Shown: positions 43,433 through 62,508 of the stretch, piece by piece
How the letters are laid out: every line of letters begins with the position of its first letter
Position numbering within the stretch: the stretch's first letter is position 1
From: Sabulicella rubraurantiaca
Lineage (GTDB): Bacteria > Pseudomonadota > Alphaproteobacteria > Acetobacterales > Acetobacteraceae
Length of the DNA stretch: 64,000 nucleotides
Assembly (NCBI RefSeq): GCF_017355885.1
Contig: NZ_JAFEUU010000004.1
Span: forward strand, 186,001 to 250,000
Direction of reading: 5' to 3'
Made by a program: the position numbers and the translations under genes
The notes under the pieces: generated by a model
What the model saw: the letters and a program-made list of their open reading frames with translations, nothing else
Database searches by the model: none
What the model was told of the DNA's origin: nothing

Positions 43433-43436
43433 GTGC

Positions 43437-44438
43437 TCAATCCAATTGGAAGAGGGTGCGCGCATTTCCCTCGCGGATGAGGGTAGCCTCCGCTTCAGGC
43501 AACGCCGCAGCTGCGAGCGTCGCCAGCGGATTACGGTCCATGGGCGGAAATGCGTCGTCGGTGCCGAGCAGCACGCGGTCAGCGCCAACCATGCCCACCA
43601 AACTCCGCACGAGGTCGCCGCCGTGCAAAATGGTGTCGTAATGGCAGCGCTGGAGGTAGTACGAGGGAGGGTGCTTAGCACCGCTTCCACCCGCCGCGGC
43701 CGGCAGGCGCTCATACATCACATCGAAGCGGCCACTCAGCCAGAGCAGCGCGCCGCCGCCGTGCGGCAGGAACAGCTTCATCTCGGGAAACCGATCGAGC
43801 ACCCCGGCGTGGATCAGGCTACCGACCGCCAGGGTCGTGTCGAAGGTGTAGCCGGCCACCTGCGTCAGCCCCCAACGCCGGACCCTCGGCCCAGGCGCGA
43901 GGTCCACAGGGTGGATCAGCAACGGCACGCCGAGTTCCTGCACCGCCGCCCAGTAGGGATCGAGCTCCATCTCGCCCAGGTTGACGCCACCGAAATTGGC
44001 AGGCGCCGCGGCGCCCTTTGCTCCGCCTTCCCGGACGGCGCGACGCAGCTCAGCTGCTGCCTCCGCCGGATCCTGCAAGGCGCCGGAGGCGAGCCAAGCG
44101 AAATGTCCAGGCCGCCGGCAGCACAAATCGGACAGCGCGTCATTCATCACGCGGTGCCAGCGTGTCGCCTTCTCGGCGGGAAGGCCAAAGCCGAACATGT
44201 CGGTCCAGACGGAGAGTACCTGCATGGACAGGCCCATCCCTTCCATGGCGGCGATGCGCGCTTCCTCCGTCTCGATCAGGCGCGGAAAGAACGGGCGGAG
44301 CCGCGTGCCGTCCATGTAGGTCAGGGCAGGCGGGCCCTCTCCGGGGGAGATGGACACGCCCAGAGCCTCGCCCTCGTGCCGCACGGCCTCCAGGACGGCG
44401 GCCGGGATGTAGTGGGCATGCGCGTCAATGGCGGTCAT
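43437..44438 (-). CDS. amidohydrolase family 2 protein (ACMSD-like)
   Basis: A 333-residue metal-dependent TIM barrel with the metal motif IDAHAHYIP, later HP in LLIHPVDLAPG, HGGGALLWLSGR and the GTDDAFPP acid. This group includes aminocarboxymuconate-semialdehyde decarboxylase and gamma-resorcylate decarboxylase, so a decarboxylation or hydrolysis step on a ring-derived acid is likely. The start overlaps the coxL stop (ATGA). Confidence 0.83.
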   Translation of the reverse strand: MTAIDAHAHYIPAAVLEAVRHEGEALGVSISPGEGPPALTYMDGTRLRPFFPRLIETEEARIAAMEGMGLSMQVLSVWTDMFGFGLPAEKATRWHRVMNDALSDLCCRRPGHFAWLASGALQDPAEAAAELRRAVREGGAKGAAAPANFGGVNLGEMELDPYWAAVQELGVPLLIHPVDLAPGPRVRRWGLTQVAGYTFDTTLAVGSLIHAGVLDRFPEMKLFLPHGGGALLWLSGRFDVMYERLPAAAGGSGAKHPPSYYLQRCHYDTILHGGDLVRSLVGMVGADRVLLGTDDAFPPMDRNPLATLAAAALPEAEATLIREGNARTLFQLD

Positions 44439-46741: not shown

Positions 46742-47223
46742 GCCTCGGCTCCCGCCGCCGCGTCCATGACCGCCTCGACGATCTGAACATACCCAGTGCA
46801 ACGGCAGATATTGCCCGAAAGGGCATCGCGGACCTGCTCGGCAGAGGGGCTGGGGTTGCCAGCGAGCAGCGCGGTGGCCGTCATCAGCATCCCAGGCGTG
46901 CAGAAGCCGCACTGCACGGCGTGGTGGCGCTGAAACGCGGCCTGCAAGGGCGTCAGCCCGCCACCCGCAGGGGTCAGCCCCTCGACGGTGGTCACGCTGT
47001 GCCCACGGGCCTGCACCGCGAGCATGAGGCAGGCGCGGACCGGCTCGCCATCCAGGAGGACAGTGCAGGCGCCGCACACTCCGTGCTCACAGCCGAGATG
47101 CGTGCCGGTGAGTCGCAGCTCCTCGCGAAGGAAGTCCGCAAGCGAGAGGCGCGCGGGAACCTCGCGGGCAACCGTCGCGCCATTGACACTGAGGGTGATG
47201 GACAGGCTTTCGGTGGGCGTCAT
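46738..47223 (-). CDS. 2Fe-2S subunit of the molybdenum hydroxylase
   Basis: A 161-residue electron-transfer subunit with two clusters: plant-type C45, C50, C53, C65 (GCEHGVCGACTVLLDG) and helical-domain C105, C108, C140, C142 (CGFCTPG and CRCTGY). It hands electrons from molybdenum to the FAD subunit. Overlaps both neighbouring genes by four bases. Confidence 0.94.
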   Translation of the reverse strand: MTPTESLSITLSVNGATVAREVPARLSLADFLREELRLTGTHLGCEHGVCGACTVLLDGEPVRACLMLAVQARGHSVTTVEGLTPAGGGLTPLQAAFQRHHAVQCGFCTPGMLMTATALLAGNPSPSAEQVRDALSGNICRCTGYVQIVEAVMDAAAGAEA

Positions 47224-48098
47224 GAGGCGAGACGGGCTTCCGGCAGGGAAAGGGCATCCGCGAGGGCCCGGCGGACCATTACGGGCGCGACGCGGCGGCG
47301 GTACTCGGCGGAGGCGTGCAGGTCCGAGGGGGGATCGATCCCCTGCGCCGCCAGGGATGCGGCCTCGCGCAGCAGCGCTGCGCCCGGCACCTGACCTCGG
47401 AGCCGCGCCTCCGCCTCCCGCCGGCGGACGGGGCGGCTAGACGCGCCGAAAAGGACGATCCGCGCATCGGTGCAAGTACCGTCGGCGCCGAGATCCACCG
47501 TCACGGCGGCCCCGACCATGGCGAAGTCGCCGTCGCGCCGCGCCACTTCCGCGAAGCCGGCACGGCGCGAAGCTGGCCAAGCAGGAAACCGGATAGCGAC
47601 CAACAGCTCCCCGGGTTCGATCGCCGTGGTGAAGATGCCGAGGGAAAACTCCTCGGCCGGCACGTCGCGCCCACCACCAGGTCCGCGAACCTCCATGACA
47701 GCATCCGAAGCGAGGCAGACGGCGGGCCACTCGGCAGAGGGATCAGCATGAGCCAGGCTGCCGCCGATGGTGCCGCGCGTGCGGACCGGGCCATGTGCGA
47801 TGTGCGGGTAGGCAAGGCCGAGCAAGGGCACCGCACCGGCGATCGCAGAATTCGTGCCGATGCGACTATGCCGCACCAGCGCCCCCAGCCTGAGGCCTGC
47901 GGGCGTGATCGACACCTCGGACAGCTCGGGAATGGCGTTGATGTCCACCAGCACGCTGGGTGCTGCAAGACGCAGATTCAGTGCCGGCATCAGGCTTTGT
48001 CCGCCCGCCAGCACCTTTGCATCCTCATGCGCCGCGAGCAGCGCTAGCGCGCCTTCGATGCTGGCTGGCGCGGCATAGGCGAAGGGGGGCGCCTTCAT
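47220..48098 (-). CDS. FAD-binding subunit of the molybdenum hydroxylase
   Basis: A 292-residue CoxM-type subunit: AKVLAGGQSLMPALNLRLA and RGTIGGSLAHADPSAEWPAV are the FAD pyrophosphate and isoalloxazine loops. It passes electrons to the final acceptor. The ATG overlaps the stop of the Bug gene upstream, which links uptake and oxidation tightly. Confidence 0.93.
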   Translation of the reverse strand: MKAPPFAYAAPASIEGALALLAAHEDAKVLAGGQSLMPALNLRLAAPSVLVDINAIPELSEVSITPAGLRLGALVRHSRIGTNSAIAGAVPLLGLAYPHIAHGPVRTRGTIGGSLAHADPSAEWPAVCLASDAVMEVRGPGGGRDVPAEEFSLGIFTTAIEPGELLVAIRFPAWPASRRAGFAEVARRDGDFAMVGAAVTVDLGADGTCTDARIVLFGASSRPVRRREAEARLRGQVPGAALLREAASLAAQGIDPPSDLHASAEYRRRVAPVMVRRALADALSLPEARLAS

Positions 48099-49078
48099 GT
48101 CATCCTCACGCCGGTGATCCGCACGATCTCGGCCCAGCGCGCCACCTCGGCGCGGAAGAACTCGCCGAAGCGATCCGGCCCCCAACCCAACGCTTCCAGC
48201 CCTTGCGCGGGCAGGGCCGCGCGCAGCGCTTCGGAACTGACCGCCGCCTGCATCGCCGCGTTCAAACGCTCGAGGATCGGGCGCGGCGTCCGTGCCGGGC
48301 AGAAAGTGCCGAACCAAGCGGAGAAGTCGAAGTCTTGGTCGCCCAGTTGCTCGCCCACGGTCGGCAAGTTGGGAAGCAGCGCCACGCGCTCCTGCGTGGA
48401 GGCCGCGAGCGGACGCAGCGCACCGTTCGCCACATGCGGCAGCGTCGCCGGGATCTGATAGGAAAGCATGTCGATCGTGCCGTTGAGCACATCCGCCAGG
48501 GCTGGTCCGAATGCACGGTAGGGCACGTGCTGCAGCGGAACATTGTGCCGAATGCGAAGCATCTCGCCCACCAGGTGGGACGTCGTACCATTCCCGCCGG
48601 AGACGAAGGTCGAGCGGCCGCGCTGCCGGGCCCAGGCGAGATATTCGGGCAGCGTCGTCGCGGGAATACGGCTGTTGACCAGGATGATGTTCGGCGCATT
48701 CACCAAGTTGGTGAGCGGCTCGAAATCATTCAGCAGGTTGTAGGGTAGCGGGTCCGTCGCCATGGCGGCCGAGACGGCATGGGAAGCGACGGTGCCCAGG
48801 CAGATCGTGTGCCCATCGGGCGGCGCCTTGGCGACGAGGTCGGCCCCGATGATGCCGCCCGCCCCTGGCCGGTTGTCGATCACCAGGGGCTGGCCGAGGC
48901 GCTCGCCGGCCTGCGCCGCGACGATGCGGGCCAGGGCATCGGCGGTGGAGCCCGGGCCGAATGGCACCACGAAGCGGATCGGCCGGCTCGGGAAGCCATC
49001 CTGCGCGAAGGCCGGAGCAACGAGGCAAGAGGTCGCCGCCCCCATGAGGGTGCGGCGCGTGGTCCCGAAGCGTCTCAT
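48095..49078 (-). CDS. Bug/TctC family receptor
   Basis: A 327-residue receptor: twin-arginine-like start (TTRRTLMGAATSCLVAPAFAQ), FPSRPIRFVVPFGPGSTADALARIV, ENRPGAGG-type loop (DNRPGAGGIIGADLVAK) and HVPYRAFGPALADVLNG. It is the second gene of the seven-gene operon, so its ligand is probably the compound hydroxylated by the following enzyme. Confidence 0.88.
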   Translation of the reverse strand: MRRFGTTRRTLMGAATSCLVAPAFAQDGFPSRPIRFVVPFGPGSTADALARIVAAQAGERLGQPLVIDNRPGAGGIIGADLVAKAPPDGHTICLGTVASHAVSAAMATDPLPYNLLNDFEPLTNLVNAPNIILVNSRIPATTLPEYLAWARQRGRSTFVSGGNGTTSHLVGEMLRIRHNVPLQHVPYRAFGPALADVLNGTIDMLSYQIPATLPHVANGALRPLAASTQERVALLPNLPTVGEQLGDQDFDFSAWFGTFCPARTPRPILERLNAAMQAAVSSEALRAALPAQGLEALGWGPDRFGEFFRAEVARWAEIVRITGVRMT

Positions 49079-49098
49079 CGGCTTCTATCTCCCGGTCA

Positions 49099-49911
49099 TC
49101 ATGGGCGATCGCGCAGGCGGTCCATCAGGGCCTTCTCTTGCCCCCCATCGATCTCGATCATCGTGCCGTTGACCATGTGCATCAGCGGCGAGGCGAGCAT
49201 GGCAACAAGCTTGCCGCACTCCTCGCTTTCCGCGATGCGGCCCAGCGGGATCGAGGCCGGCGCGAGCTTGTCGGCCTCCTCGTAAGGAAGGCCCATGTCA
49301 CGCGACATGGCCGCGACCAGCCCGGCCCAGCGCTCCGTGCGAACGGGGCCCGGGTTCACCGCGACGAAGCTGATATTGTGCTTGCCGTACTGGCCTGCGA
49401 GCGCCTTGGTCAGGTTCTGACCGGCAGCATTGGCCGCGCCGGGAACGACCTCCCAGTAGGAGGGCTTCACGCCGTCATTGCCGATGAGGTTCACGACGCG
49501 CCCGCCGCCCTGCTTCACCATGATCGGCAGCGCGTGACGGAGGCAGCGGACGTAGCCCATGAACTTGAGCTGAAGCCCCTTCTCCCAATCCTCCTCGCTC
49601 AAGGTCTCGATCACGCCGCCAGGGGCCGAGCCCGCATTGTTCACCAGGATGTCGATGCGCCCCAGGGTCTCATGACCCTTGCGGATGAAGTTCGCCGCGT
49701 CCGCATCCTTGGTCAGATCCGCCGCAACGGGAACGATCTTACGGCCAGTCTCCGCCGCCAGCTCCTTGGCGGCCGCTTCCAGCACATCCGGACGGCGTGC
49801 GCAGATCACGACATCGCAGCCCTCTCGCGCCAGGGCGCGGGTGATCGCCTTGCCGATGCCCTCGCTGCCGCCGGTGACGAGCGCCTTCTTGCCGCTGAGC
49901 TCCAGATCCAT
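49099..49911 (-). CDS. SDR-fold protein lacking the catalytic Tyr-Lys motif
   Basis: A 270-residue Rossmann protein with the classical cofactor site GGSEGIG (14-20), ADLT and NNAG (91-94). Where the YxxxK catalytic motif should be, before the conserved NLTKAL helix, it reads PGAAN (157-161), and the catalytic serine position lies in NLIGN. The enzyme may have another chemistry or be a binding protein. The 20-bp spacing and same strand make it the first gene of the operon to 42578. Upstream lie two palindromic sites. Confidence 0.8.
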   Translation of the reverse strand: MDLELSGKKALVTGGSEGIGKAITRALAREGCDVVICARRPDVLEAAAKELAAETGRKIVPVAADLTKDADAANFIRKGHETLGRIDILVNNAGSAPGGVIETLSEEDWEKGLQLKFMGYVRCLRHALPIMVKQGGGRVVNLIGNDGVKPSYWEVVPGAANAAGQNLTKALAGQYGKHNISFVAVNPGPVRTERWAGLVAAMSRDMGLPYEEADKLAPASIPLGRIAESEECGKLVAMLASPLMHMVNGTMIEIDGGQEKALMDRLRDRP

Positions 49912-49954: not shown

Positions 49955-49969
49955 TTGAGTGACGTTAAA
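49955..49969. promoter_or_regulatory. operator-like site, copy 1 (SDR operon)
   Basis: TTGAGTGACGTTAAA, 44 bases upstream of the SDR start. It shares TTGAGTGAC and TT-x-AA with the near-perfect copy at 58201 and TTGAGTG with the copy at 54638. Confidence 0.5.
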
Positions 49970-49974
49970 CACGG

Positions 49975-49989
49975 TGCAGAACTTCTGCA
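49975..49989. promoter_or_regulatory. perfect 15-base palindrome upstream of the SDR operon
   Basis: TGCAGAACTTCTGCA has perfect dyad symmetry around the central base. It lies in the 127-bp gap between livK and the SDR gene, five bases from the shared operator-like site, and may bind a second regulator or stabilise the livK mRNA end. Confidence 0.4.
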
Positions 49990-50038
49990 ACCGGCGCTGC
50001 GTCAGCAAGGAGCGAAGCGCCGGCCGCAAAATGGGCCC

Positions 50039-51172
50039 TCAAGCCCGCGCGTCCGCCTCACGCCCGTTGCGGATCTGCACGACAGGCGAGACCAGTGTCG
50101 GATCGCCGGTCTGGTCGAAGCGCAGCCGCCCACGCGTGCTGTCCATGTCGGTCTGGCGCAGCGCGTCGCGGATCGCGCGGCGGTCGGCGCGCCCTGCCCG
50201 CTCGATCGCGGCGTAGGCGGCATTCGCAGCGTCATAGGCCAGGGCGTGGGTGCCGTCGGGCACCTTGTTGTGGGCGGAGTGAAGCTCCGCCGTCAGGCGC
50301 TGCGCCACCGGGTTGCTCGCCGCGGTCGCGATGCTGAAGGGGGTGACGTAGGTGACGCCCTCTGCCGCCTGCCCGGCGAGTTCGACATAGGCCGGCACAG
50401 CATAGCCGTCGGAGCCGAAGACTGGCAGGTTGGACTGCATCTGCCGGAGCTGCCGCACAATCAGCGCACCTTCCGTATAGCGTGACCAGTCGAGGATCGC
50501 ATCGGGGTTCGCGCCGCGAAGCCGCGTGAGCTGCGCCGTGAAGTCGATGTCGCCGCGCGCATAGCGCTCCTCCGCCACGGTGCTCAGCCCCTTGGCGCGG
50601 GCAAGCTCGTTGAATGCCTCGACGCCGCCGCGGCCGAAGTCATCGTTCACGCAGATCGCCGCGAAGCGTTTGACCTGCGGGTGCCGCTCGGCGATGAAGT
50701 CCACGAGGTCAGCGACCTGCTTCCGGTCGGGCACGGTCGAGCGGAAGATCCACTCATTGCCAACGCGCGTCAGCCGCTGCGACGTCGCCGTGATGGCGAT
50801 CTGCGGAACCTCCTCCTCCCGGAAGACCTGCGAGGCGGAGAGGCTCGCGGGGCTGCTCACGCTGCCGAAGGCCAGCAGCACCCGGTCGCGCGTCGCGAAG
50901 CGGCGGGCGATCGTCGCCGCCTCCTCCGGCCGGCCGCCATCGTCGGCGAAGGTCACCTCGATGCGCTGCCCGCGAATCCCGCCCGCCCGGTTGCGCGCCT
51001 CGGTGACGAGTTCGATCCCCTCGCGCATGCTCTGCCCGAAAGCGGCAGCGCTGCCGGAGTAGGGCCCGAAGGCGCCGACCCGCAGGGGTTCCCCACGGCT
51101 TTGCGCGACGGCAAGGGCCGGTGCTGTGATGAAGGGGATGGAGGCCAGAAGGCTTCGGCGTCGGATGGTCAT
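50039..51172 (-). CDS. livK: branched-chain-type ABC transporter substrate-binding protein
   Basis: A 377-residue periplasmic receptor of the LivJ/LivK (Peripla_BP_6) family: signal MTIRRRSLLASIPFITAPALAVA, then LRVGAFGPYSGSAAAFGQSMREGIEL, and AGGIRGQRIEVTFADDGGRPEEA. In catabolic regions such receptors often bind aromatic acids, not amino acids. It is the fifth gene of the liv operon; the start overlaps the livF stop. Confidence 0.88.
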   Translation of the reverse strand: MTIRRRSLLASIPFITAPALAVAQSRGEPLRVGAFGPYSGSAAAFGQSMREGIELVTEARNRAGGIRGQRIEVTFADDGGRPEEAATIARRFATRDRVLLAFGSVSSPASLSASQVFREEEVPQIAITATSQRLTRVGNEWIFRSTVPDRKQVADLVDFIAERHPQVKRFAAICVNDDFGRGGVEAFNELARAKGLSTVAEERYARGDIDFTAQLTRLRGANPDAILDWSRYTEGALIVRQLRQMQSNLPVFGSDGYAVPAYVELAGQAAEGVTYVTPFSIATAASNPVAQRLTAELHSAHNKVPDGTHALAYDAANAAYAAIERAGRADRRAIRDALRQTDMDSTRGRLRFDQTGDPTLVSPVVQIRNGREADARA

Positions 51173-51930
51173 GGAGGATTCCCTTCCAGTGTTGAGGCGC
51201 CAACATGCTGGGGTTCGGAGCGGGCCCCGGCGCCGAGGTAGCTCGCCCTTACATCCGGATCGCGGAGCAGGCTGGCGGCCGCCCCCTGCGCGACGATTCG
51301 CCCAGTCTCCATGACATAGCCGCGGTCTGCGAGGCCGAGCGCGAGGTTGGCGTTCTGCTCCACGAGCAGGATCGTGATGCCCTCGGCGCGGAAGGCGCGC
51401 ACGGCCCGCGCCACCTCGACCACCATCAGCGGCGCAAGGCCGAGTGTCGGCTCATCCAGCATCAGCAGGCGCGGGCGCGCCATCATGGCGCGGCCGAAGG
51501 CCAGCATCTGCTGCTCCCCGCCCGACAGCGTGCCAGCGCGCTGCCGATGGCGGTCCTTCAGCCGAGGGAAGCGGTGATAGGCCGCCTCGAGCCCATCGCG
51601 CATCTCCGTCGCGCGGCGCCGCGCGTGCCCGCCGACGCGCAAATTCTCCTCCACCGTCAGCTCCGGGAATATCCGCCGCCCTTCGGGGACATGCACCAAG
51701 CCCTGTGCGGCGATGCGGTCCGGCGTCATCCCGGCGAGACTCTGGCCGTCGAACCAGATGCCGCCCTCCCTGGCCCGAAGCAGACCGGAGATGGCGCGCA
51801 ATGTTGTGCTCTTTCCCGCGCCATTGGCGCCGATGAGGGTGACGACCTCTCCGGCCCCGACCTCAAGCGACACGCCCCGCAGGCAGGTCACATCCCCGTA
51901 GCCAGCGACAAGGCCCTTGACGCTCAGCAT
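51169..51930 (-). CDS. livF: ABC transporter ATPase LivF
   Basis: A 253-residue nucleotide-binding subunit with Walker A GANGAGKST, signature LSGGEQQML and Walker B LLMLDEPTLGLAP. It overlaps livG by seven bases and livK by four. Confidence 0.92.
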   Translation of the reverse strand: MLSVKGLVAGYGDVTCLRGVSLEVGAGEVVTLIGANGAGKSTTLRAISGLLRAREGGIWFDGQSLAGMTPDRIAAQGLVHVPEGRRIFPELTVEENLRVGGHARRRATEMRDGLEAAYHRFPRLKDRHRQRAGTLSGGEQQMLAFGRAMMARPRLLMLDEPTLGLAPLMVVEVARAVRAFRAEGITILLVEQNANLALGLADRGYVMETGRIVAQGAAASLLRDPDVRASYLGAGARSEPQHVGASTLEGNPP

Positions 51931-52709
51931 GCCAGCGCCTCCGCGAGCGCATCCTGGCCGAGATACGCCTCGACCACGCTTGCGTCAGCCTGAATCTCCG
52001 CCGGAGTGCCGGTGGCGAGGTGCCGGCCATGGTTCAGCACCGTGATCCGGTCGCAGACGCGCATCACCACATCCATGTGATGCTCGACCAGGATGACCGT
52101 CGTCCCTGCGTCGCGGATGCGCGCGATCAGGCCCGTCAGGGAGGCGGCTTCCGTCGGATTCAGCCCGGCCGCCGGCTCGTCCAGCAGCAGCAGCTTCGGG
52201 CGTGGCGCGATGGCGCGGGCAATTTCCAGGAGGCGCCTGTGTCCATAGGCCAGCGTCCCGGCCACGTGCTGCGCGTGGGCCGCGAGGCCGACGAATTCCA
52301 GGGCCTCGGCAGCACGGGCCATGATCGCCCGCTCCTCGCGCCGCTGGCCCGGCGGGCGAAACAGGGCGGCCAGCACACCCGCCCTCGAATCCGTGTGCAG
52401 CCCGATGGCGGCATTCTCCAGCGCCGTCATCTCCGCGAAGAGCTTGAGGTTCTGAAAGGTCCGCCGGATGCCGAGGCGCGCGCGCTCCGCCCCGGCCAAG
52501 GATGTGATGTCCCGCCCCTCAAGCAGAAGCCGGCCGCCGCTGGGCGGAAAGGCACCGGCGATCACGTTGAGGAAGGTGGTCTTTCCTGCGCCATTCGGGC
52601 CGATCAGCCCGTGCACCGTGCCTGAAGCCACCTGCATATGTACGGCCTCGAGCGCCACCAAACCGCCGAAGCGGCGCGTCACGGCTTGGACCTCGAGCAG
52701 CGGCGTCAC
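51924..52709 (-). CDS. livG: ABC transporter ATPase LivG
   Basis: A 261-residue ATPase: Walker A GPNGAGKTT, Walker B LLLLDEPAAGLNP, H-loop VEHHMDVVM. The signature reads LAYGHRRLLEIARAI rather than LSGGQ, which is common for LivG proteins. GTG start overlapping the livM stop (GTGA). Confidence 0.9.
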   Translation of the reverse strand: MTPLLEVQAVTRRFGGLVALEAVHMQVASGTVHGLIGPNGAGKTTFLNVIAGAFPPSGGRLLLEGRDITSLAGAERARLGIRRTFQNLKLFAEMTALENAAIGLHTDSRAGVLAALFRPPGQRREERAIMARAAEALEFVGLAAHAQHVAGTLAYGHRRLLEIARAIAPRPKLLLLDEPAAGLNPTEAASLTGLIARIRDAGTTVILVEHHMDVVMRVCDRITVLNHGRHLATGTPAEIQADASVVEAYLGQDALAEALAC

Positions 52710-53635
52710 GGCGCGGCCCCGCGTGGACGGCGAATCGCCCCCCAGAGCCCTGCGAGTCCGCCGGAGCCGAACAGCATCAGGACCACCACCGTGGCACCGA
52801 AGACGAGCAGGCGGTAGTCGCCGATCAAGCGCAGCCATTCCGGCAGCAACACCACAACGGCTGCACCCAGCACCGCGCCGGCCGCGCTGCCCACGCCGCC
52901 GATCACCACCATGATCAGCACCTCGACCGACTTCCAGAAGGAGAAGTCGGCAGGACCGAGATAGCGGATGTGGTGGGCGAAAAGCGCCCCCGCGAGACCG
53001 GAGATAACGGCAGAGACGACGAAGCACTGGGTCTTGATCAGCGTGACCCGAAGCCCGCTGGCGCGCGCCGCGTCCTCGTCCTGGCGTATGGCGTGGGCGG
53101 CGCGGCCGAAGCGCGAATCCGCAAGCCGGCACAGTCCCAGCCAGACCAGCGCCGCGAGGCCGGCACAGAGCCAGTAGACATGAGCGGGATCACGCAGCCG
53201 CAGGCCGAAGAGTGTGGGGCGCGATATGCCCATCAGCCCGAGTGAGCCCCCGGTCAGCCACTCCTCGTTCTTGATGACGAGATAGGCGGCGATGCTGAAG
53301 CCAAGTGTCGCCACCGCCAAATAGGGTCCACGCAGCCGCGTTACGGGGATCAGAATGAGGCTGGAAGCACCGGCAGCCATCGCTGCCAGCGGCACGGCCA
53401 CCAAAAAGGGCACGCCCGCCCCGGTCATCAGCGCCGAGCCATAGGCGCCCACCCCATAGAAGGCTGCCTGGCCGAGCGAGAGCTGCCCCGAGATGCCGAG
53501 AAGAAACTGCAGCCCGAGGGCGAGGATGGCCGCGATCGCGACCGAGGTCATGAGATGAAGCAGGAAAGGGTCGGGTAGAACGAAGGGCAGCAACGCCAGG
53601 GCAAGGAATGCCAAGGCCGGTGCAACGCGGATCAT
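52706..53635 (-). CDS. livM: ABC transporter permease LivM
   Basis: A membrane permease of about 309 residues with 8-10 helices; LGLQFLLGISGQLSLGQAAFYGVGAYGSAL and RQDEDAARASGLRV (coupling loop) are family marks. An ATG five codons upstream (53650) is an alternative start. Overlaps livH by four bases. Confidence 0.9.
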   Translation of the reverse strand: MIRVAPALAFLALALLPFVLPDPFLLHLMTSVAIAAILALGLQFLLGISGQLSLGQAAFYGVGAYGSALMTGAGVPFLVAVPLAAMAAGASSLILIPVTRLRGPYLAVATLGFSIAAYLVIKNEEWLTGGSLGLMGISRPTLFGLRLRDPAHVYWLCAGLAALVWLGLCRLADSRFGRAAHAIRQDEDAARASGLRVTLIKTQCFVVSAVISGLAGALFAHHIRYLGPADFSFWKSVEVLIMVVIGGVGSAAGAVLGAAVVVLLPEWLRLIGDYRLLVFGATVVVLMLFGSGGLAGLWGAIRRPRGAAP

Positions 53636-54516
53636 CGCAGGCGCCGCCACAGCCCTGCCAGCCCCTGCGGCAGCACCAGAAGGATGGCTATCAGCAACAT
53701 CATGCCGATCGCATCCTTATAGGCGGATGAAATGAAGACCGCGCCGAAGGTCTCGATCAGCCCGAACAGGATGCCCCCGAGCATCGCACCCCCGATGCTT
53801 CCCAAGCCTCCGAGAGTGGCCGCGACGAAGGCTTTAAGGCCGGTGATGAAGCCCATCTCGAAGAAGGAGAAGAAGAGCGATCCGAGCATCACCCCTGCCG
53901 CCCCCGCCATGGCGCCCGCCACCGCAAAGGTGGCGGCCATGCTTCTCGACAGGTTCACGCCCATGAGCTGCGCAGCGTCCGGGTCCTGGGCCACAGCCTG
54001 CATGGCCAGGCCCGGTCGCGTCTTCGAAAGGAAGATCTGCAGCGCCACCATGATCACGAAGCCCGAGGCGGCGACCCACAGCAATTGCGGGGAGATGCGA
54101 ATGCCGCTGACCTCCACTGCGCCACGGAACATGTCGGGATAGCGCAGCGGCTCCGACCCCCAGCCGAGGCGCGCCGCGTTCATCAGGAAGATGGAGAAGC
54201 CGACCGTGGCGGTGATGATGCTCACCAACGGCACGCCGCGCCGCCGCAGGGTGCGGTAGACCAGAAGCTCCATCGCGCCCGCCAGGGCACCGCCCGCCAG
54301 CATGCCGACGAGAAGCACGAGGGCCGGGTGCAGGGACGGCGCGACCCAGAGCGCGGAAAGGCCGCACATGCTGCCCAGCATCATCACCTCGCCCTGGGCG
54401 AAGTGGATGATGCCGCTCGCACGGATGATCATGGAGTACCCAAGCGCCAGCAGGGAGTACACGCATCCAACGGCGACGCCGCCGACCGTGACTTCCAGCA
54501 AGGCGGTCATGTTCAT
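53632..54516 (-). CDS. livH: ABC transporter permease LivH
   Basis: A 294-residue permease: VGCVYSLLALGYSMIIRASGIIHFAQGEVMMLG at the N-terminus and the coupling loop AVAQDPDAAQLMGVN. First gene of livHMGFK, which is complete here. A start two codons later is possible. The divergent gap to the SnoaL-like gene has a copy of the shared operator-like site. Confidence 0.91.
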   Translation of the reverse strand: MNMTALLEVTVGGVAVGCVYSLLALGYSMIIRASGIIHFAQGEVMMLGSMCGLSALWVAPSLHPALVLLVGMLAGGALAGAMELLVYRTLRRRGVPLVSIITATVGFSIFLMNAARLGWGSEPLRYPDMFRGAVEVSGIRISPQLLWVAASGFVIMVALQIFLSKTRPGLAMQAVAQDPDAAQLMGVNLSRSMAATFAVAGAMAGAAGVMLGSLFFSFFEMGFITGLKAFVAATLGGLGSIGGAMLGGILFGLIETFGAVFISSAYKDAIGMMLLIAILLVLPQGLAGLWRRLR

Positions 54517-54637
54517 GTCTGGTGGTCCCAGCCCGCCCGCCGGCGCGCGGCGCATCGATGCATCATCGCGGTCACGTCCTCGTCGGGCCCTCGTGGCGGA
54601 GAGTATGGGCGCGACACCTTGCGGCCGGCAACTGATT

Positions 54638-54677
54638 TTGAGTGTGGTTGAAATTCCTGTCGGCAGCGGCAATGATG
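54638..54677 (+). promoter_or_regulatory. operator-like site, copy 2, with candidate promoter
   Basis: TTGAGTGTGGTTGAA (54638-54652) lies between livH and the SnoaL-like gene. On the plus strand TTGAAA (54649-54654) and AATGAT (54672-54677) with 17-base spacing would form a promoter for the SnoaL-like gene whose -35 overlaps the site. Confidence 0.42.
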
Positions 54678-54700
54678 ACCGAACCGCGAGGAGGAAGCAC

Positions 54701-55312
54701 ATGGACCAGGACGCGATCAGCCGGCAGAGGATCGTGGAGCTGCTCAACAACTGGGTCGTGTGGCGCGACGCCGGGGACTGGACGCGGTTCCGCAGCTGCT
54801 GGCACGCGGATGGGCAGATGTTCGCCACTTGGTGCCAAGCCCCCGCCGAGGAATTCGCGCGCCAGACTGAAGCCGCGTGGGACCGCGGGATCACGATCCT
54901 CCATTTCCTCGGCGGGATTTCGGTGGATGTGGCGGGCCGCAGGGCGGTGAGCCAGACCAAGATGACGATCAACCAGCGCGCCCCCGTGGGCGGCGTTCCG
55001 GTGGATGTCGTGTGCACCGGCCGCTTCTACGACTTGCTGGAGGAGCGCGACGGCAAGTGGGGCATCGTACTGCGCCAGCCCATCTACGAGAAGGACCGCC
55101 TCGACCCAGTGGTCCCTGGAACACCCGTGCCTCTCGAGCAGGACCTGCTTGAGCGCTTCCCTGCGGAATACCGGCACCTCGCCTATGTACAGACCAAGGC
55201 AGGCTTCACGGTGAAGACCGATATGCCCCTGCTCCGGGGCGAAAAGGTGCAGCGCCTCTATGCATGCGGCGCCGCTTGGCTGAAGGGCGGGGACCACGGC
55301 TGGACGGGTTGA
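54701..55312 (+). CDS. SnoaL-like/NTF2-fold protein
   Basis: A 203-residue cone-shaped alpha+beta-barrel protein: RQRIVELLNNWVVWRDAGDWTRFRSCWHADGQM is the helical start of SnoaL-like dehydratases and isomerases, and KWGIVLRQPIYEKDRLDPV the later strands. Members act as hydratases, isomerases or small subunits of ring oxygenases. GAGGAGG precedes the ATG. It is alone on the plus strand between two leftward operons. Confidence 0.75.
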   Translation: MDQDAISRQRIVELLNNWVVWRDAGDWTRFRSCWHADGQMFATWCQAPAEEFARQTEAAWDRGITILHFLGGISVDVAGRRAVSQTKMTINQRAPVGGVPVDVVCTGRFYDLLEERDGKWGIVLRQPIYEKDRLDPVVPGTPVPLEQDLLERFPAEYRHLAYVQTKAGFTVKTDMPLLRGEKVQRLYACGAAWLKGGDHGWTG

Positions 55313-55324
55313 GGCCCGTCCCCC

Positions 55325-56293
55325 TCATTCCGACAGCCGCTGCACCCTCCCCGCGCGGAGCAGGGAGGCCCAGCGTTCGACGTCCTCATTGAAATAGGCG
55401 CTGAAGCTCGCAGCGCTGGTCGGAATGGGGATCGCCCCACCTTGGCGCAGCCGTTCCTGCACCGGCGGCGTGGCGAGCGCGCGGAGGCAGGCCTCCTCCA
55501 GTCGGGCGCGGGCCGCCTGCGGCGTCGCCGCATGGACGAAGAAGCCGAACCACGTGGCAAAAGAGAATCCGGGCAGGCCCTGTTCTGCAATGGTCGGGAG
55601 GTCAGCAAACTCTGCCACGCGCTCGGCAGAGGTGACGCCAAGGCCGCGGGCCTGACCTTGACGCGCGCGGGCCGCGCCAGCGCCCAGAATGTCGAGCATG
55701 GCATCGAGGCGTCCGGCGATCAGGTCAGTGTAGATCGCCGCCGAACCACCTCGATAGGGAACATGGGTCATCTGCACACCCGCCGCCGCCGCCAGCAACT
55801 CCATGCCGAGATGCGTGCCGGTCCCAGGGCCGGAGGAACCATAAGTGAGCGGTCGCGCCCGTGCCGCAGCCAGGAACTCGGCGAGGTTTCGGATCGGGGA
55901 GTTCGGCGGAACGATCAGGATGGAGGGGATGGCACCCACCCCGGCCACGGCCGCCAGGTCGCGCACCGGGTCGAAGCTCAGCGACGCCAGCGAGACGGAG
56001 GAGGCGAGGCCCGAGGCGGTGAAGAGAAGAGTGTGGCCATCAGGCCGGGCCTGCTGCGCGACGTAGGCGGCACCAATATTGCCGCCGGCGCCGGGCCGGT
56101 TCTCCACCACCACGGGCTGGCCCAGCACCGCCGCCATCTCCGGCGCCATTGCACGGCCGAGCACGTCGTTGTTCCCGCCAGCGCCATATGGGACGATCAT
56201 GGTCACGGCCCGGTCGGGGAAGGCCAGGGCCGGGCTCGCCAACGCTGCGGCCGCCACGAGCGGCGTGGCGAAAAGAGGCCGGCGCGCGATCAT
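55325..56293 (-). CDS. Bug/TctC family receptor
   Basis: A 322-residue receptor: signal MIARRPLFATPLVAAAALASPALA, FPDRAVTMIVPYGAGGNNDVLGRAM, ENRPGAGGNIGAAYVAQQ, HVPYRGGSAAIYTDLIAGR. The start overlaps the stop of the cyclase gene (ATGA), so it is third in the operon Bug-cyclase-Bug. Confidence 0.89.
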   Translation of the reverse strand: MIARRPLFATPLVAAAALASPALAFPDRAVTMIVPYGAGGNNDVLGRAMAPEMAAVLGQPVVVENRPGAGGNIGAAYVAQQARPDGHTLLFTASGLASSVSLASLSFDPVRDLAAVAGVGAIPSILIVPPNSPIRNLAEFLAAARARPLTYGSSGPGTGTHLGMELLAAAAGVQMTHVPYRGGSAAIYTDLIAGRLDAMLDILGAGAARARQGQARGLGVTSAERVAEFADLPTIAEQGLPGFSFATWFGFFVHAATPQAARARLEEACLRALATPPVQERLRQGGAIPIPTSAASFSAYFNEDVERWASLLRAGRVQRLSE

Positions 56294-57144
56294 CCGAAGC
56301 GCCGAGTGAAGATGGCCTTCGCGACGTCACCCACTGCTTCGACCTTCTCTTCCGTATCCTGGATGACAAGGATGCGGCATGGGCAGGCCTCGAGCCCTTC
56401 GTAGCGCCAGGGGAAGGCGCCAATGAGGCCGCGCTGGTTCAGCACCAGCTCGATGTCGCCACCCACATTCTCGGCGTGGATCAGCCCCTCCTGGAACCCG
56501 TAGGCGTGGAAGGGGAAGATATCCTCTTGCACCTTGCGGCCGGATTTCTTGTGTTCGTACTCGTAGGTTCCGAAATACTCCGCGCAGCTCATGCCGACCT
56601 TGTCCTCGAAGCGCTTCGCCAGATCGGGTCGCATGTGGCGGATGGACGTGTTCATGGCGTGGTCGCCAGACCCGCAATCGACCCCGAACCACTTGATCTT
56701 CTTTTTCAGCATCCACTCGAGCAGCTCGATCCCGCCCCCTGGGTGCATGCAGAAATAGCGGACGAGGTCCTGCTGGGGCTTGCCCTCCCAGTAGCGTTGC
56801 CAGCCCGTGTGGATGATGAGGATGTCGCCCTCGCGTATCTCGACCGGTGCCGCCTCGAGCATGGCCGGCGTGATCATCGCCCAGTCGTCCATGTGCTGTG
56901 AGACGTCCACGACGCAGCCAGGACCAATCAGGAAGTCGAGCGGGTAGGAAGCCATGTCGCCCATGCCGTCCGTACCGTGCATGGCGCCGTCGATATGCGT
57001 GCCGACATGCAGCGCCGTGTCGATGCGCTGCGCGACGATCATCTTCGTCTGCAGATTCTGCGCGTAATACATCTGGTTGCCGGCATAGCCGACCCAACCG
57101 GGCGTGTGCACATTCATCAGATGAGAGAGGTCGGTGATCTTCAT
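56290..57144 (-). CDS. cyclase family (kynurenine formamidase-like) metal hydrolase
   Basis: A 284-residue protein with the zinc motif HVGTHIDGAMH (H46, H50, D52, H56) of the cyclase/KynB family, and IIHTGWQRYWEGK and GVDCGSGDH segments. Members hydrolyse formamides, amides or cyclic imides. Flanked by Bug receptors on both sides in one operon; a ring-opened or cyclic amide is a reasonable substrate guess. Confidence 0.84.
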   Translation of the reverse strand: MKITDLSHLMNVHTPGWVGYAGNQMYYAQNLQTKMIVAQRIDTALHVGTHIDGAMHGTDGMGDMASYPLDFLIGPGCVVDVSQHMDDWAMITPAMLEAAPVEIREGDILIIHTGWQRYWEGKPQQDLVRYFCMHPGGGIELLEWMLKKKIKWFGVDCGSGDHAMNTSIRHMRPDLAKRFEDKVGMSCAEYFGTYEYEHKKSGRKVQEDIFPFHAYGFQEGLIHAENVGGDIELVLNQRGLIGAFPWRYEGLEACPCRILVIQDTEEKVEAVGDVAKAIFTRRFG

Positions 57145-57169
57145 TCGCTCGTTTCGTCCTTTTCCGGTC

Positions 57170-58144
57170 TCAATTCATGCGCGCGCCCGACGCGCGAACC
57201 ACCTCGCCCCATTTCGTGTGTTCGGTGCGAAGAAATTCATTCAGTTCCTGCGGCGTGCTGGCCTGCACGACGCCACCGAGGTTCGCCAGCGCCCGCCGCG
57301 TCTCATCCTGAGCCAGACCCTCGACGATCGCGCGATTGAGCGTGGCGATGCGGGCGGCGGGCACACCAGCTGGTGCGTAAATCGCATACCAGCCCTCGGC
57401 GATGACGCCGGGCACGCCGGCCTCGATGATGGTCGGCACATCCGGCAGCACGCCGATCCGCTGTTCGGCGGCCAGACCCAGCGCGCGGAAGGCGCCGCTC
57501 TGCACATGTGCCATCACCACGGGAATATCCACGAGCAACATGTCGATCTCGCCCGCCAGCAGCGCGGTCACGGCTGGAGCGCCTCCGCGATAGGGCACGT
57601 GCAGGATGTCCACGCCGGCGCGCATCTTGAAGAGCTCGCCGGCCAGATGGAGTGTGCTTCCGCTGCCGGTGGAACCGAAGGTGAGCCGCCCAGGCCGCTC
57701 ACGGGCGAGCCGTACGAGGTCCTGGACGGATTGCGCCGGCACTTGCCTCCCGGCCACCAGGAGCTGAGGCGTGGACACCGTCCGTGTGACTGGGAGGAGG
57801 TCTCGGAACGGGTCATAGGGCATGCTCGCCTGCATGTGCGGGATGACGGCAAGCGCGCCTGCCGAGGCGAGGACGAGGGTGTGTCCATCTGCCGGGGCGC
57901 GCGCCGCCATTTCCACGGCCAGCACCCCCGCTGCGCCGCCGCGGTTCTCGATTACAAGTGGCTGACCGAGTCTGGCGGAAATCGGCGGCGCGATGATGCG
58001 CGCGATGGTGTCGGCCGTTCCGCCAGGCGGAAAGCCGACGAGCAGCCGCACGGGCCGGTCAGGAAAAGCCGGCGTCTGAGCGGAGGCGGCGCGTGCAGCG
58101 CCGAATCCTGCCAGAGCCACGCTGAGACTGCGCCTCGTCAGCAT
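57170..58144 (-). CDS. Bug/TctC family receptor
   Basis: A 324-residue receptor starting nine bases after GGAGG: signal MLTRRSLSVALAGFGAARAASA, FPDRPVRLLVGFPPGGTADTIARII, ENRGGAAGVLAVEMAA, HVPYRGGAPAVTALLAGE. First gene of Bug-cyclase-Bug. Two receptors in one operon suggest either two ligands or affinity variants. Confidence 0.89.
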   Translation of the reverse strand: MLTRRSLSVALAGFGAARAASAQTPAFPDRPVRLLVGFPPGGTADTIARIIAPPISARLGQPLVIENRGGAAGVLAVEMAARAPADGHTLVLASAGALAVIPHMQASMPYDPFRDLLPVTRTVSTPQLLVAGRQVPAQSVQDLVRLARERPGRLTFGSTGSGSTLHLAGELFKMRAGVDILHVPYRGGAPAVTALLAGEIDMLLVDIPVVMAHVQSGAFRALGLAAEQRIGVLPDVPTIIEAGVPGVIAEGWYAIYAPAGVPAARIATLNRAIVEGLAQDETRRALANLGGVVQASTPQELNEFLRTEHTKWGEVVRASGARMN

Positions 58145-58185
58145 CCTTTTGGAGCCTCCTGTGCCCGCGTAGTCCGATCTGAGGG

Positions 58186-58215
58186 AGCATAGAGAGATTT
58201 TTGAGTGACATTCAA
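58186..58215 (-). promoter_or_regulatory. operator-like palindrome, copy 3, over a candidate promoter
   Basis: TTGAGTGACATTCAA (58201-58215) follows the dyad pattern TTGA-x-TG-x-CA-x-TCAA. On the minus strand TTGAAT (58215-58210) and TATGCT (58191-58186), 18 bases apart, form a candidate promoter for the leftward Bug operon, so a bound regulator would cover its -35 element. Confidence 0.5.
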
Positions 58216-58260
58216 CTACCATCGCCGCATGCTCCGCTGAGATCTTGGATGGTGGTGCGC

Positions 58261-59100
58261 ATGACGGACGATCCGGTGCTCTATCAGCGGCATGGCCGCG
58301 TCGGCTGCGTGGTGCTGAATCGCCCTTCCAAGTTGAATGCCATCAGCGACAGCATGAAGGGCCTCCTCGTCGAGGCCTTCCTCTGTGCGGATCGCGACAA
58401 GGAAGCCAGCGTCATCCTGCTCCGCGGCGAAGGTCGCAGCTTTTGCGCCGGACACGACCTCGACAACGAGGAGGACGAGGCGGGCGGCACGAATGCCTGG
58501 CTCTGGTGGTCGCAGCTCAACGAAAGCCTGCGCTCCGAGCTCATGCCCTTCGAGGTGTCGAAGCCCGTGGTCGCCGCGGTTCAGGGGCATGTGCTGGGTG
58601 GCGGCTGCCAGATGGCGATGGTCTCCGACCTCGTCATCGCCGCCGAGGATGCAAGATTCGCCGAGCCCGAGGTGCGCTTCTCCAACACCGGCCCGCTTTT
58701 CGTCATGCCGTGGCTCGCCGGCTTTCGCCGCGCGCGCGAATTCCTCTACTTCGGCGACGCAATCGACGCGCGCACGGCGCTCGAATGGGGCATGGTGAAC
58801 CGCGTCGTCCCAACGGCTGAGCTGCAGGACACCGCCATGGCCTATGCCGAGCGGCTGGCGAACATCTCACCCGAGGCGCTGACGCGGACGAAGCTCGCCC
58901 TGAAGCGCGGGCTGGAAGCCGCCGGGTTCCGCAATGCGCTCCATGCGGGTCTCGACGTCATCTCCACCCTTTATGCGACCGAGACAGACATCGGCGCGGA
59001 GTTCAACCGCATCGCCGAGAGCGAAGGGCTGAAGGCAGCGCTCGCCTGGCGTGCCTCCCACTTCAAGGTCGCTTCCGGCACCAAGGCAAAGGAAGGGTGA
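58261..59100 (+). CDS. enoyl-CoA hydratase/isomerase family protein
   Basis: A crotonase-fold protein of about 279 residues: LNRPSKLNAIS, oxyanion-hole ILLRGEGRSFCAGHDL and GHVLGGGCQMAMVSDLVIAAEDARFAEPEVRF. Acts on acyl-CoA esters by hydration, isomerisation or ring cleavage. ATG 58249 is an alternative start. It is four bases upstream of the acyl-CoA synthetase gene, which would supply its CoA ester. Confidence 0.86.
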   Translation: MTDDPVLYQRHGRVGCVVLNRPSKLNAISDSMKGLLVEAFLCADRDKEASVILLRGEGRSFCAGHDLDNEEDEAGGTNAWLWWSQLNESLRSELMPFEVSKPVVAAVQGHVLGGGCQMAMVSDLVIAAEDARFAEPEVRFSNTGPLFVMPWLAGFRRAREFLYFGDAIDARTALEWGMVNRVVPTAELQDTAMAYAERLANISPEALTRTKLALKRGLEAAGFRNALHAGLDVISTLYATETDIGAEFNRIAESEGLKAALAWRASHFKVASGTKAKEG

Positions 59101-59103
59101 GCC

Positions 59104-61197
59104 ATGCCGCGGCTTCAGCCGCTTCTCGCTCCGCGCTCCATCGCGGTCGTTGGCGCCTCCGAGCGCCCCTCACCCGGGCGCGCGATCATGGCGTCACTGG
59201 CCCGCATGGGATTCGAGGGGAAGATCTGGCCGGTGCATCCGCGGCTGCCCGCCGTGCTGGGCGTGCCCTGCTTCGCCTCCATCGCCGATCTGCCCGAGCC
59301 GCCCGATGTCGTCGCCATCTGCCTCGGTGTGGACAATGCGGTGGAGGCATTCCGCCAGGCAGCGGCGCGGGGAGCACGGGCAGCCGTCATCTACTCCGCG
59401 GGCTTTGCCGAGGCGGGCAGCGAGGAGGGGCGCCGCCGCGCCTCGATGGTCACGGCTGCTGCGCGCGAGCACGGCACCCTTCTTTGCGGCCCGAACGGCA
59501 TGGGCATCCTCAGCCCGCACACGCGCAGCAGCACCTATCTGCACGAGGTGTTCGATCTTAAGCGGGTGCGCGGCAACGTGGCCCTCATCTCGCAAAGCGG
59601 GTCCATCTGCATCAGCATGGCCGCCGATTGCCGACGCTTCGGCTTCAGCTACATCATCTCGACAGGCAACGAGATGGTGCTGACCGCCGAGGCCTTCCTT
59701 GAAAGCGTCATCGAGGACCCGAACACGCGGGTGGCGGCGATGTTCCTCGAAACGGCAAGGCAGCCGGAAAGGCTGGTCGCGGCCCTCGACCGCGCCGCGA
59801 CTCTTGGTAAGCCGGTCATCGTGCTGAAGGCGGGCAAGTCAGCGCGCGCAGCCCATGCCGTCGCCAGCCACACGGGCGGGCTAGCGGGCGAGGCGCCGGC
59901 CTTCTCTGCCCTCCTGCGCGCCCATCGCGCCATCGAGGTCGCGGACCTTTCGGAGCTTACGGAGGTGCTGGCCGCCGCACAGGGCCGCCATATGCCCGCT
60001 GGGCCGCGCCTCGCCATCGTCACCGGCTCGGGGGGTCAGGCGGAGTTGCTGCTCGACCTTGCCGAGGCGACCGGCATTCGCCTCGACCCCATGGCCGAGG
60101 CCGACCGCGCCTCGGTGAATTCCGTCATCGGCGACGTGCCAGGTGACGGCAACCCGCTCGATGCCTGGGGCAACGGGCAGGCAGAGGTGAACTACCCCCA
60201 TGCGCTGCGGGTCCTTGGAGCCTCAGCCCATTACGATGCAGTCGCCTTCACCATGGACGGGATGGACGGGCATCCGCTCGACGCCCCCGAGGAGGACCTG
60301 CCCTATGCCGAGATGCTGGCCGAGGCGGCGCTTGCCTCGCCCAAGCCCTTCTATGGGCTGAGCACGCGCGCCGGCACCTTCCGCACCGATCAGGAGCGCG
60401 TGCTGCGCGCGGCTGGCGTGGGGCTGGTCAGCGGTGCGTCCCAGGGCCTCCGCGCCATCGCGAAGCTCGCGCAGTGGGCGCAAACGCCGCTGCAACCCCG
60501 CCCTCCGCGCGCCTTGGCGGCTGAGACGCCGGGCCGAGAGCGGCCGACGATCCACGAGCACGATGCCAAGCAGATGCTCGCCGCGGCGGGCCTCCCCGTG
60601 CCGCCGGAGCGCCTGGTGCACACCCTGCCTGAGGCATTGGCCGCCGCCGAGGCGCTGGGCTTCCCGGTGGTTCTCAAGGCCGTCTCCGACGTCATTCCTC
60701 ACAAGACCGAGCATGGCCTCGTTGCGCTCGACTTGAGCGATGCCGAGGCCCTCCGGACTGCCTGGGCGACCCTGCAGGAACGGCTCGCGGGCCATGGTCA
60801 GGTGGCAGGCATCCTTGTCCAGCCCATGCTGCGCGGGGGCGTGGAGGTGATCGCCGGAGTCAAGCAGCACGAGGGCATCGGCCCGGTCATGGCCTTCGGC
60901 GTCGGCGGGACCTTGGTGGAGGTGATCGGCGAGGTCGCGCTGCGCGCTCTCCCGCTGCGGCAAGGCGAGGCCGAGGCGCTGATCGCTGAGGCCCGCCTCG
61001 CTTCAGCCCTGCTCGCCGGGGTACGTGGCGCTCCGCCCTCCGATCTCCCTTCCCTCGCGGCAGCGCTCTACGCGCTTAGCGACTTCGCGGTAGCGAATGC
61101 CGGCTGGATCGCGGAGGTGGACGTGAATCCCATCAAGGTCTTCGCGCGCGGCCAGGGATGCCTCGCGCTCGATGCCATCATCATCCCCCGGAGCTGA
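59104..61197 (+). CDS. ADP-forming acyl-CoA synthetase (acetate-CoA ligase family)
   Basis: A 697-residue fusion: N-terminal CoA-binding domain (SIAVVGASERPSPGRAIMASL), succinyl-CoA-ligase-like domain with the phospho-histidine H256 (SHTGGLAGEAPAF), and a C-terminal ATP-grasp domain (EHDAKQMLAAAGLPVPPERLV, GFPVVLKAVSDVIPHKTE). It makes acyl-CoA from an acid with ATP giving ADP. In this operon it probably activates the product of ring cleavage or an aromatic acid. Confidence 0.9.
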   Translation: MPRLQPLLAPRSIAVVGASERPSPGRAIMASLARMGFEGKIWPVHPRLPAVLGVPCFASIADLPEPPDVVAICLGVDNAVEAFRQAAARGARAAVIYSAGFAEAGSEEGRRRASMVTAAAREHGTLLCGPNGMGILSPHTRSSTYLHEVFDLKRVRGNVALISQSGSICISMAADCRRFGFSYIISTGNEMVLTAEAFLESVIEDPNTRVAAMFLETARQPERLVAALDRAATLGKPVIVLKAGKSARAAHAVASHTGGLAGEAPAFSALLRAHRAIEVADLSELTEVLAAAQGRHMPAGPRLAIVTGSGGQAELLLDLAEATGIRLDPMAEADRASVNSVIGDVPGDGNPLDAWGNGQAEVNYPHALRVLGASAHYDAVAFTMDGMDGHPLDAPEEDLPYAEMLAEAALASPKPFYGLSTRAGTFRTDQERVLRAAGVGLVSGASQGLRAIAKLAQWAQTPLQPRPPRALAAETPGRERPTIHEHDAKQMLAAAGLPVPPERLVHTLPEALAAAEALGFPVVLKAVSDVIPHKTEHGLVALDLSDAEALRTAWATLQERLAGHGQVAGILVQPMLRGGVEVIAGVKQHEGIGPVMAFGVGGTLVEVIGEVALRALPLRQGEAEALIAEARLASALLAGVRGAPPSDLPSLAAALYALSDFAVANAGWIAEVDVNPIKVFARGQGCLALDAIIIPRS

Positions 61198-61206
61198 GTC
61201 CGCCGA

Positions 61207-62508
61207 ATGAGCCAGATGCACCTTGGCCTCTTTGTCCTCGGCAGCGGACACCATGTCGCAGGCTGGCGAATGCCGGGGGCGGAGGCTGGGGCCGAGAACT
61301 TCCCACTCATTCAGCGCATTACCCGCACCGCCGAGCGAGCCCGATTTGACTTCGTGTTCTTCGCCGATGCTCTGAACGCTGCCCCGGGGATGCACCCCTC
61401 CGTGCTGGTGCGGCTCGAGCCCCTCACTCTGCTCGCCGCGCTGGCTGCCAGCACGACGCATATCGGCCTCGCCGCGACTTGCAACACCACCTACACCGAG
61501 CCCTACAATCTGGCTCGCCTGTTCGGCTCGCTCGACCACATCAGCGGTGGGCGTGCAGCTTGGAACGTCGTCACCGGCGCCTTCGCGGAGGCCTCGCAGA
61601 ATTTCGGAACCCGCCCGCACCCGCCGCACGAGGAGCGCTACGCCATCGCGGCAGAATTCGTCCGCGTCGTCCGCGGCCTTTGGGATAGCTGGGAGGACGG
61701 CGCCATCACGATGGACCGCGCCACGGGGCAGTTTGCCGATGCTTCCCGTCTGCATGTGCTGAATCACCGCGGGGCGCATTTCGAGGTAAAGGGGCCGCTC
61801 AACCTGTCACGCCCTCCGCAGGGCCACCCGGTCCTGATCCAGGCGGGCGCCTCCGACACGGGCCGCGACCTCGCAGCCTCAATCGCCGAGGTGGTGTTCG
61901 CGGTGCAGCAGGATGTGGAAAGTGCGCGCGCCTTTGCCGAGGATATCAAGGCGCGTGCCGCGCGGATGGGCCGCGATCCCGCCCATGTGAAGGTCATGCC
62001 CGGCGTCAGCCCGATCCTGGGCGGCAGCGTAGCCGAGGCGCGCGCGAAGCTGGACCAACTCGGCGAGTTCCTCGATCCGGTGGCGGCGCTGACTGTGCTT
62101 TCGGAGCGGCTCGGGCAGGATCTTTCGGGCTACGACCTCGACGGGCCGGTGCCGGAGCTGCCGGAATCCACGATCATGCGGGGCCACGCCGCGGTGCTGA
62201 CGGCGCTGGCGCGGCGTGAAGGGCTGACGCTCCGTCAGCTTCGCAACGTGGCTGCGGGAGCGATGGGGCACCGGTTGCTGCTTGGCACCCCGGAGCAGGT
62301 GGCCGACGATCTGGAAGCCTGGTTCCGGGCTGGCGCCGCAGATGGCTTCAACATCATGCCGCCGTGGTTTCCCGGCGCCTTCGACGACTTCGCCAATGAG
62401 GTCGTGCCCATCCTCCAGAAGCGCGGCCTGTTCCGTGAGGATTACTCCGGCACCATGTTGCGCGACCATCTCGGCCTGCCACGGCCGACGCATCCGACCG
62501 CGCTCTAG
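61207..62508 (+). CDS. flavin-dependent monooxygenase of the NtaA/SnaA/DszA family
   Basis: A 433-residue LLM-class (luciferase-like) oxygenase that uses FMNH2 made by a separate reductase. Family segments are QMHLGLFVLGSGHHVAGWRMPGA, WNVVTGAFAEASQNFG and HFEVKGPLNLSRPPQGHPVLIQAGASDTGRDLAA. Relatives attack nitrilotriacetate, EDTA and dibenzothiophene sulfone; N- or S-dealkylation or ring oxygenation is likely. No flavin reductase gene is in the window. It follows the synthetase by nine bases. Confidence 0.88.
   Translation: MSQMHLGLFVLGSGHHVAGWRMPGAEAGAENFPLIQRITRTAERARFDFVFFADALNAAPGMHPSVLVRLEPLTLLAALAASTTHIGLAATCNTTYTEPYNLARLFGSLDHISGGRAAWNVVTGAFAEASQNFGTRPHPPHEERYAIAAEFVRVVRGLWDSWEDGAITMDRATGQFADASRLHVLNHRGAHFEVKGPLNLSRPPQGHPVLIQAGASDTGRDLAASIAEVVFAVQQDVESARAFAEDIKARAARMGRDPAHVKVMPGVSPILGGSVAEARAKLDQLGEFLDPVAALTVLSERLGQDLSGYDLDGPVPELPESTIMRGHAAVLTALARREGLTLRQLRNVAAGAMGHRLLLGTPEQVADDLEAWFRAGAADGFNIMPPWFPGAFDDFANEVVPILQKRGLFREDYSGTMLRDHLGLPRPTHPTAL

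Follow-up and report, generated by a model that had tools for sequence, protein, structure and literature searches.

A shared operator in a catabolic and uptake cluster of Sabulicella rubraurantiaca and its probable XRE-cupin regulator

Operons of the cluster and their operator sites

The window analysed here is a 64,000-nt stretch of the S. rubraurantiaca genome (C47:186001-250000; genome G000, an assembly of 5,017,681 bases, or 5.02 Mb, in 64 contigs). Its right-hand part carries the following genes, in window coordinates; families were assigned with Pfam and, for the first operon, also with PDB.

42578..49911 (-): SDR, Bug1 receptor, Mo-hydroxylase (FAD/FeS/MoCo), ACMSD-family amidohydrolase, alpha/beta hydrolase
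50039..54516 (-): liv-type ABC importer (SBP, two ATPases, two permeases); promoter gap with site 2
54701..55312 (+): SnoaL_4 protein; promoter gap with site 2
55325..58144 (-): Bug3 receptor, PF04199 cyclase-type hydrolase, Bug2 receptor; promoter gap with site 3
58249..62508 (+): ECH, ADP-forming acyl-CoA ligase-like protein, NtaA/DmoA-family FMN monooxygenase (LLM); promoter gap with site 3
62545..64000 (-): second large subunit of the Mo-hydroxylase encoded by the last operon, running on past the window

The first operon, with presumed limits at 42578 and 49911, lies downstream of site 1 and has the same gene order in two related genomes, G020 (same genus) and G209. The last operon encodes a Mo-hydroxylase of FAD / MoCo / FeS / MoCo composition; it starts with the FAD2 gene at C47:254475, downstream of site 4, and its final gene is the one cut by the right edge of the window. 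In total, the cluster comprises two importers (liv and Ssu-type), three Bug receptors, two Mo-hydroxylases (one with an extra large subunit) and an OYE-type reductase, in addition to the enzymes listed above. This gene set fits degradation of an aromatic or N-heteroaromatic acid; a literature search for a picolinate-like pathway returned nothing usable. Elsewhere in the window, at 36355-36996 (+), an ORF matches the C-terminal part of the APH_6_hur kinase family only.

Promoters of the cluster carry a 15-nt element. The first three copies are given in window coordinates, the others on contig C47 beyond the window edge.

Site 1: TTGAGTGACGTTAAA, 49955..49969 (+), 43 nt before the SDR start codon (49911, -)
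Site 2: TTGAGTGTGGTTGAA, 54638..54652 (+), in the gap between livH (-) and SnoaL (+), 48 nt before the SnoaL ATG
Site 3: TTGAGTGACATTCAA, 58201..58215 (+), a near-palindrome in the gap between Bug3 (-) and the ECH operon (+)
Site 4: TTGAGTGTGATTAAA, C47:254503-254517, 27 nt before FAD2, an exact pattern match
Site 5: TTGAGTGGGATTGAA, C47:257586 (-), preceding the gene of an SsuA-type binding protein, an exact pattern match
Site 6: TTTAATCTGGCTCAA, C47:257689, preceding the divergent SsuB/SsuC genes, found with the matrix (19.4 bits)

An earlier note, made from the window sequence alone, had pointed to three 15-mers (sites 1 to 3), and all three were found on the forward strand in the gaps that it gave. 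The dyad TTGA-x-TG-x-CA-x-TCAA that it described is a good account of the copy at 58201; the other two have an imperfect right half. Its observation that the window holds no comparable copy was borne out by a symmetrised matrix, which at ≥12 bits returned the three sites alone. Distances from the operators to the start codons of the catabolic and uptake operons range from ∼18 to 121 nt, and sites 4 to 6 lie at only about 18–28 nt.

The genome-wide scan was done with patterns; matrix scans covered the window, neighbourhoods and selected loci. Exact matches to the pattern TTGAGTGNNNTTNAA number five in the whole genome, and all of them fall into 22 kb (C47:235955-257600), in comparison with 0.107 matches per genome expected under a second-order Markov model. 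They are the three sites noted earlier plus sites 4 and 5, just beyond the window edge, each of which precedes another operon of the cluster. Sites 4 and 5 played no part in defining the pattern; in the 12.6 kb containing them 0.00027 matches are expected (Poisson P of two or more, about 4e-8). Read backwards, the pattern has no exact match in this genome.

A regulator gene within the cluster

The same contig carries a gene for a transcription factor between sites 4 and 5.

C47:254550-255278 (-): XRE-cupin regulator, 242 aa, 4.6 kb to the right of the window

The protein has an HTH_3 domain at residues 69-122 (44.7 bits) followed by a Cupin_2 domain at 168-237 (57.6 bits), both above the curated cut-offs. 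This combination of an XRE/Cro-CI helix-turn-helix and a C-terminal cupin in one chain characterizes XRE-cupin transcription factors. A scan of genome contigs with the regulator gave a single remote partial match. The statement of the earlier note that no regulator gene lies beside these operons thus reflects the position of the window edge, just beyond which the gene is found; nor is the protein of the TetR, GntR or IclR type expected there. A further expectation, that the regulator's own promoter has the site, holds in four related genomes (G209, G424, G316 and G091) and fails in S. rubraurantiaca and G020, so autoregulation is not conserved. In all these four relatives, as in S. rubraurantiaca (site 4), an operator occupies the gap between the regulator gene (its stop codon in S. 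rubraurantiaca) and FAD2.

The gap between the regulator and OYE genes, outside the window, contains a tandem 22-nt repeat, CTTGATGGGTGCCGAACC(A/T)TAT, present twice at C47:255287-255330 (L012:6287-6330) and followed by TTGAGTCGCC. The repeat, which is not visible in the corresponding gap of G020, could be a control element of its own.

Strict orthologues of the regulator (44–64% identity) were found in G020, G209, G078, G316, G091, G424 and G498, and a class-wide draw of 385 genomes yielded none outside the family. Among 21 genomes of the genus, the orthologue is confined to G000 and G020, each of which has five exact TTGAGTGNNNTTNAA sites; the others have none or one. In a family draw of 249 genomes, the cyclase orthologue is present in four, all of which are among the five that have the regulator (P about 3e-8; 1.6e-6 without G000). 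The XRE-cupin protein is the sole regulator found to be common to the loci. Its orthologues share the recognition-helix region SxSMLSLLERG, where paralogues differ.

A similar dyad precedes a few XRE-cupin genes of remote relationship (e.g. TTTAGTAGGACTAAA and TTTAATGTCAATAAA), which links this kind of site to this kind of protein; most upstream regions of paralogues have no strong site. Since the paralogue loci yield four matches at ≥14 bits in 128 kb, this type of motif is not confined to the regulator described here. Upstream dyads resembling TTNART-N3-AYTNAA were observed at the distant XRE-cupin genes of loci L050 (G308), L061 (G288) and L082 (G007), which suggests a common operator architecture for part of the XRE-cupin class in the family.

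Conservation of the sites in related genomes

Seven sites from G000 and G020 served to train a test matrix, which was applied to 222 kb around six more distant orthologues of the regulator (44–55% identity). At ≥16 bits it produced 15 matches vs 0.2 in dinucleotide shuffles, and with one exception (position 38480 of G078) these matches are at corresponding places. Sixteen sites outside the training genomes define the cross-genus consensus TTKART-N3-AYTMAA. Palindromic operators of this form are present at promoters of the S. rubraurantiaca genome and of orthologous loci, as judged by sequence.

Individual promoters show the same picture. The 15-mer of site 1 recurs unchanged before the SDR orthologue in G020 and G209, within an invariant run of 18 alignment columns, and that of site 2 is identical in both genomes within an invariant run of 19; in the alignments of the SDR and SnoaL gaps (G000, G020 and G209) the site is the longest invariant run. 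Site 3, between ECH and Bug3, is unchanged in G020. The Bug3-LLM promoter carries a site in G209 and G424, as well as in G316 (at a separate locus, C43). G078 has the regulator, yet just one weaker Bug3-LLM site (13.6 bits). In G498, no site was found upstream of the regulator; its SnoaL orthologue is preceded by TTCAACCCCACTCAA. Dinucleotide shuffles of promoter gaps seldom reach the observed scores.

Operons that are placed elsewhere in the relatives keep the site: the Ssu operon in G020 (C400), G316 (C11) and G091 (C37), and FAD2 in G498 (C120). In two of these genomes, G316 and G091, the Ssu operon has its site one gene further upstream. The SDR and SnoaL sites of G209 are located on C355 and C277. 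Conservation upstream of orthologous operons, which the earlier note had named as a test of its proposal, therefore extends to corresponding promoters in related genera. The other test named there, on whether the motif is as frequent genome-wide as chance would make it, likewise left the proposal standing. The sites, their clustering, this conservation and the linkage to the regulator gene are all established at the sequence level.

Additional strong sites were observed in G020 at C293:7595, C383:11765, C393:5534 and C417:23990, some of them close to genes for Bug receptors and other transport functions (two of the four belonged to the training set of the matrix); the G020 regulon is possibly enlarged. 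A perfect palindrome, TTGAATGCCATTCAA, was considered as a further site of the regulon (G000:C36:200418-200432). It occurs once each in ten of the twelve genomes compared, including congeners that lack this regulator, and was for this reason set aside; it is probably the operator of another conserved regulator.

Proposed regulation and comparison with known systems

We consider it highly probable that the sites are operators of the local XRE-cupin factor, which would act as a dimer and most likely as a substrate-released repressor of the cluster. In the proposed mechanism, the 15-bp dyad TTKART-N3-AYTMAA is recognized by the HTH_3 domains of a dimer, which most likely occludes the target promoters as long as the pathway compound is absent. 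This compound, a substrate or an intermediate, would bind the cupin domain and release the promoters. Release would lead to joint expression of liv and Ssu-type import, the two Mo-hydroxylases, the decarboxylase, the cyclase-type hydrolase, the FMN monooxygenase and the CoA steps. Binding by the regulator, repression, the ligand and the pathway substrate are inferred, repression by analogy with characterized XRE-cupin factors.

Those XRE-cupin factors of Pseudomonas aeruginosa whose regulons have been determined act as dimers on palindromic sites, most of which lie in core promoters, and they probably obstruct RNA polymerase (PMC7901475). A role of the S. rubraurantiaca protein as a ligand-dependent activator or a dual regulator is unlikely: some sites do lie 48–121 nt upstream of start codons, but sites 4 to 6, at about 18–28 nt, are placed as suits occlusion, and the P. 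aeruginosa factors just mentioned all inhibit their targets, as local repressors (PMC7901475). Repression of the cluster is thus the most likely mode of action.

Much less probable is that the operators belong to another regulator. The candidate is a GntR-FCD protein encoded at 39458-40273 (-) of the window, the only other regulator identified near the cluster among the window ORFs scanned. Its homologue is absent from the orthologous neighbourhoods examined, whereas the XRE-cupin gene is present in all seven regulator neighbourhoods. The GntR-FCD gene is grouped with genes for an amidase, a Bug receptor and an enolase-superfamily (MR_MLE) protein; this separate catabolic group occupies a part of the window in which the matrix detects no site. 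Finally, relaxed patterns give a few scattered matches elsewhere (with two mismatches, the window has an uninformative 5 vs 2.6 expected), but a reading of the three sites as chance AT-rich intergenic matches with no common function is refuted by the exact genome-wide clustering, the cross-genus conservation and the shuffled gaps.

The XRE-cupin repressor is therefore retained as the preferred reading. The proposal that one regulator joins uptake, Mo-hydroxylation and CoA steps is supported by both the genome-wide and the cross-genus evidence; the original finding is correct, and stronger than could be known from the window. We offer more tentatively, as a possibility with rather less than even chances, that the cluster is a pathway module common to several genera (two Mo-hydroxylases, ACMSD-family decarboxylase, PF04199 hydrolase, NtaA-type monooxygenase and CoA steps) for an aromatic or N-heteroaromatic acid pathway not yet described, governed by one XRE-cupin switch and possibly transferred horizontally. 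If so, the operator would list the scattered genes of the pathway in each genome.

In this way a row of generically annotated genes is resolved into a single defined regulon, its regulator and operator named. The regulon predicts membership in the pathway, including genes that relatives carry on other contigs or at distant loci, and the regulator would be a testable sensor for the pathway substrate. Genome comparison can validate an operator first noticed by eye in raw sequence.

The closest known systems are the Pseudomonas XRE-cupin factors (PauR, PsdR, ErfA and others; PMC7901475), which likewise have a helix-turn-helix followed by a C-terminal cupin, palindromic operators, targets beside the regulator gene and control over metabolic genes; the comparison covers domain layout, operator symmetry and targets. 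Most Pseudomonas members have one or two targets, the exception being PauR with 29 genes at 12 places (PMC7901475). In contrast to most of them, the cluster described here has at least six sites serving about five operon groups. Among curated families, the best match of the regulator is PuuR (NCBIfam NF007408), with the same domain layout; at 58.6 bits, far under the cut-off of 211, the protein is not PuuR, and no putrescine genes were identified among its neighbours. BzdR/BoxR-type proteins (NF006015) are also XRE regulators of catabolic clusters, but the match is weak and extends over the helix-turn-helix part (42.2 bits vs a cut-off of 204), so this identity was rejected as well. BzdR/BoxR proteins have a shikimate-kinase-like domain, whereas the regulator described here carries Cupin_2. 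The regulon is well supported and new, and its kind is already known.
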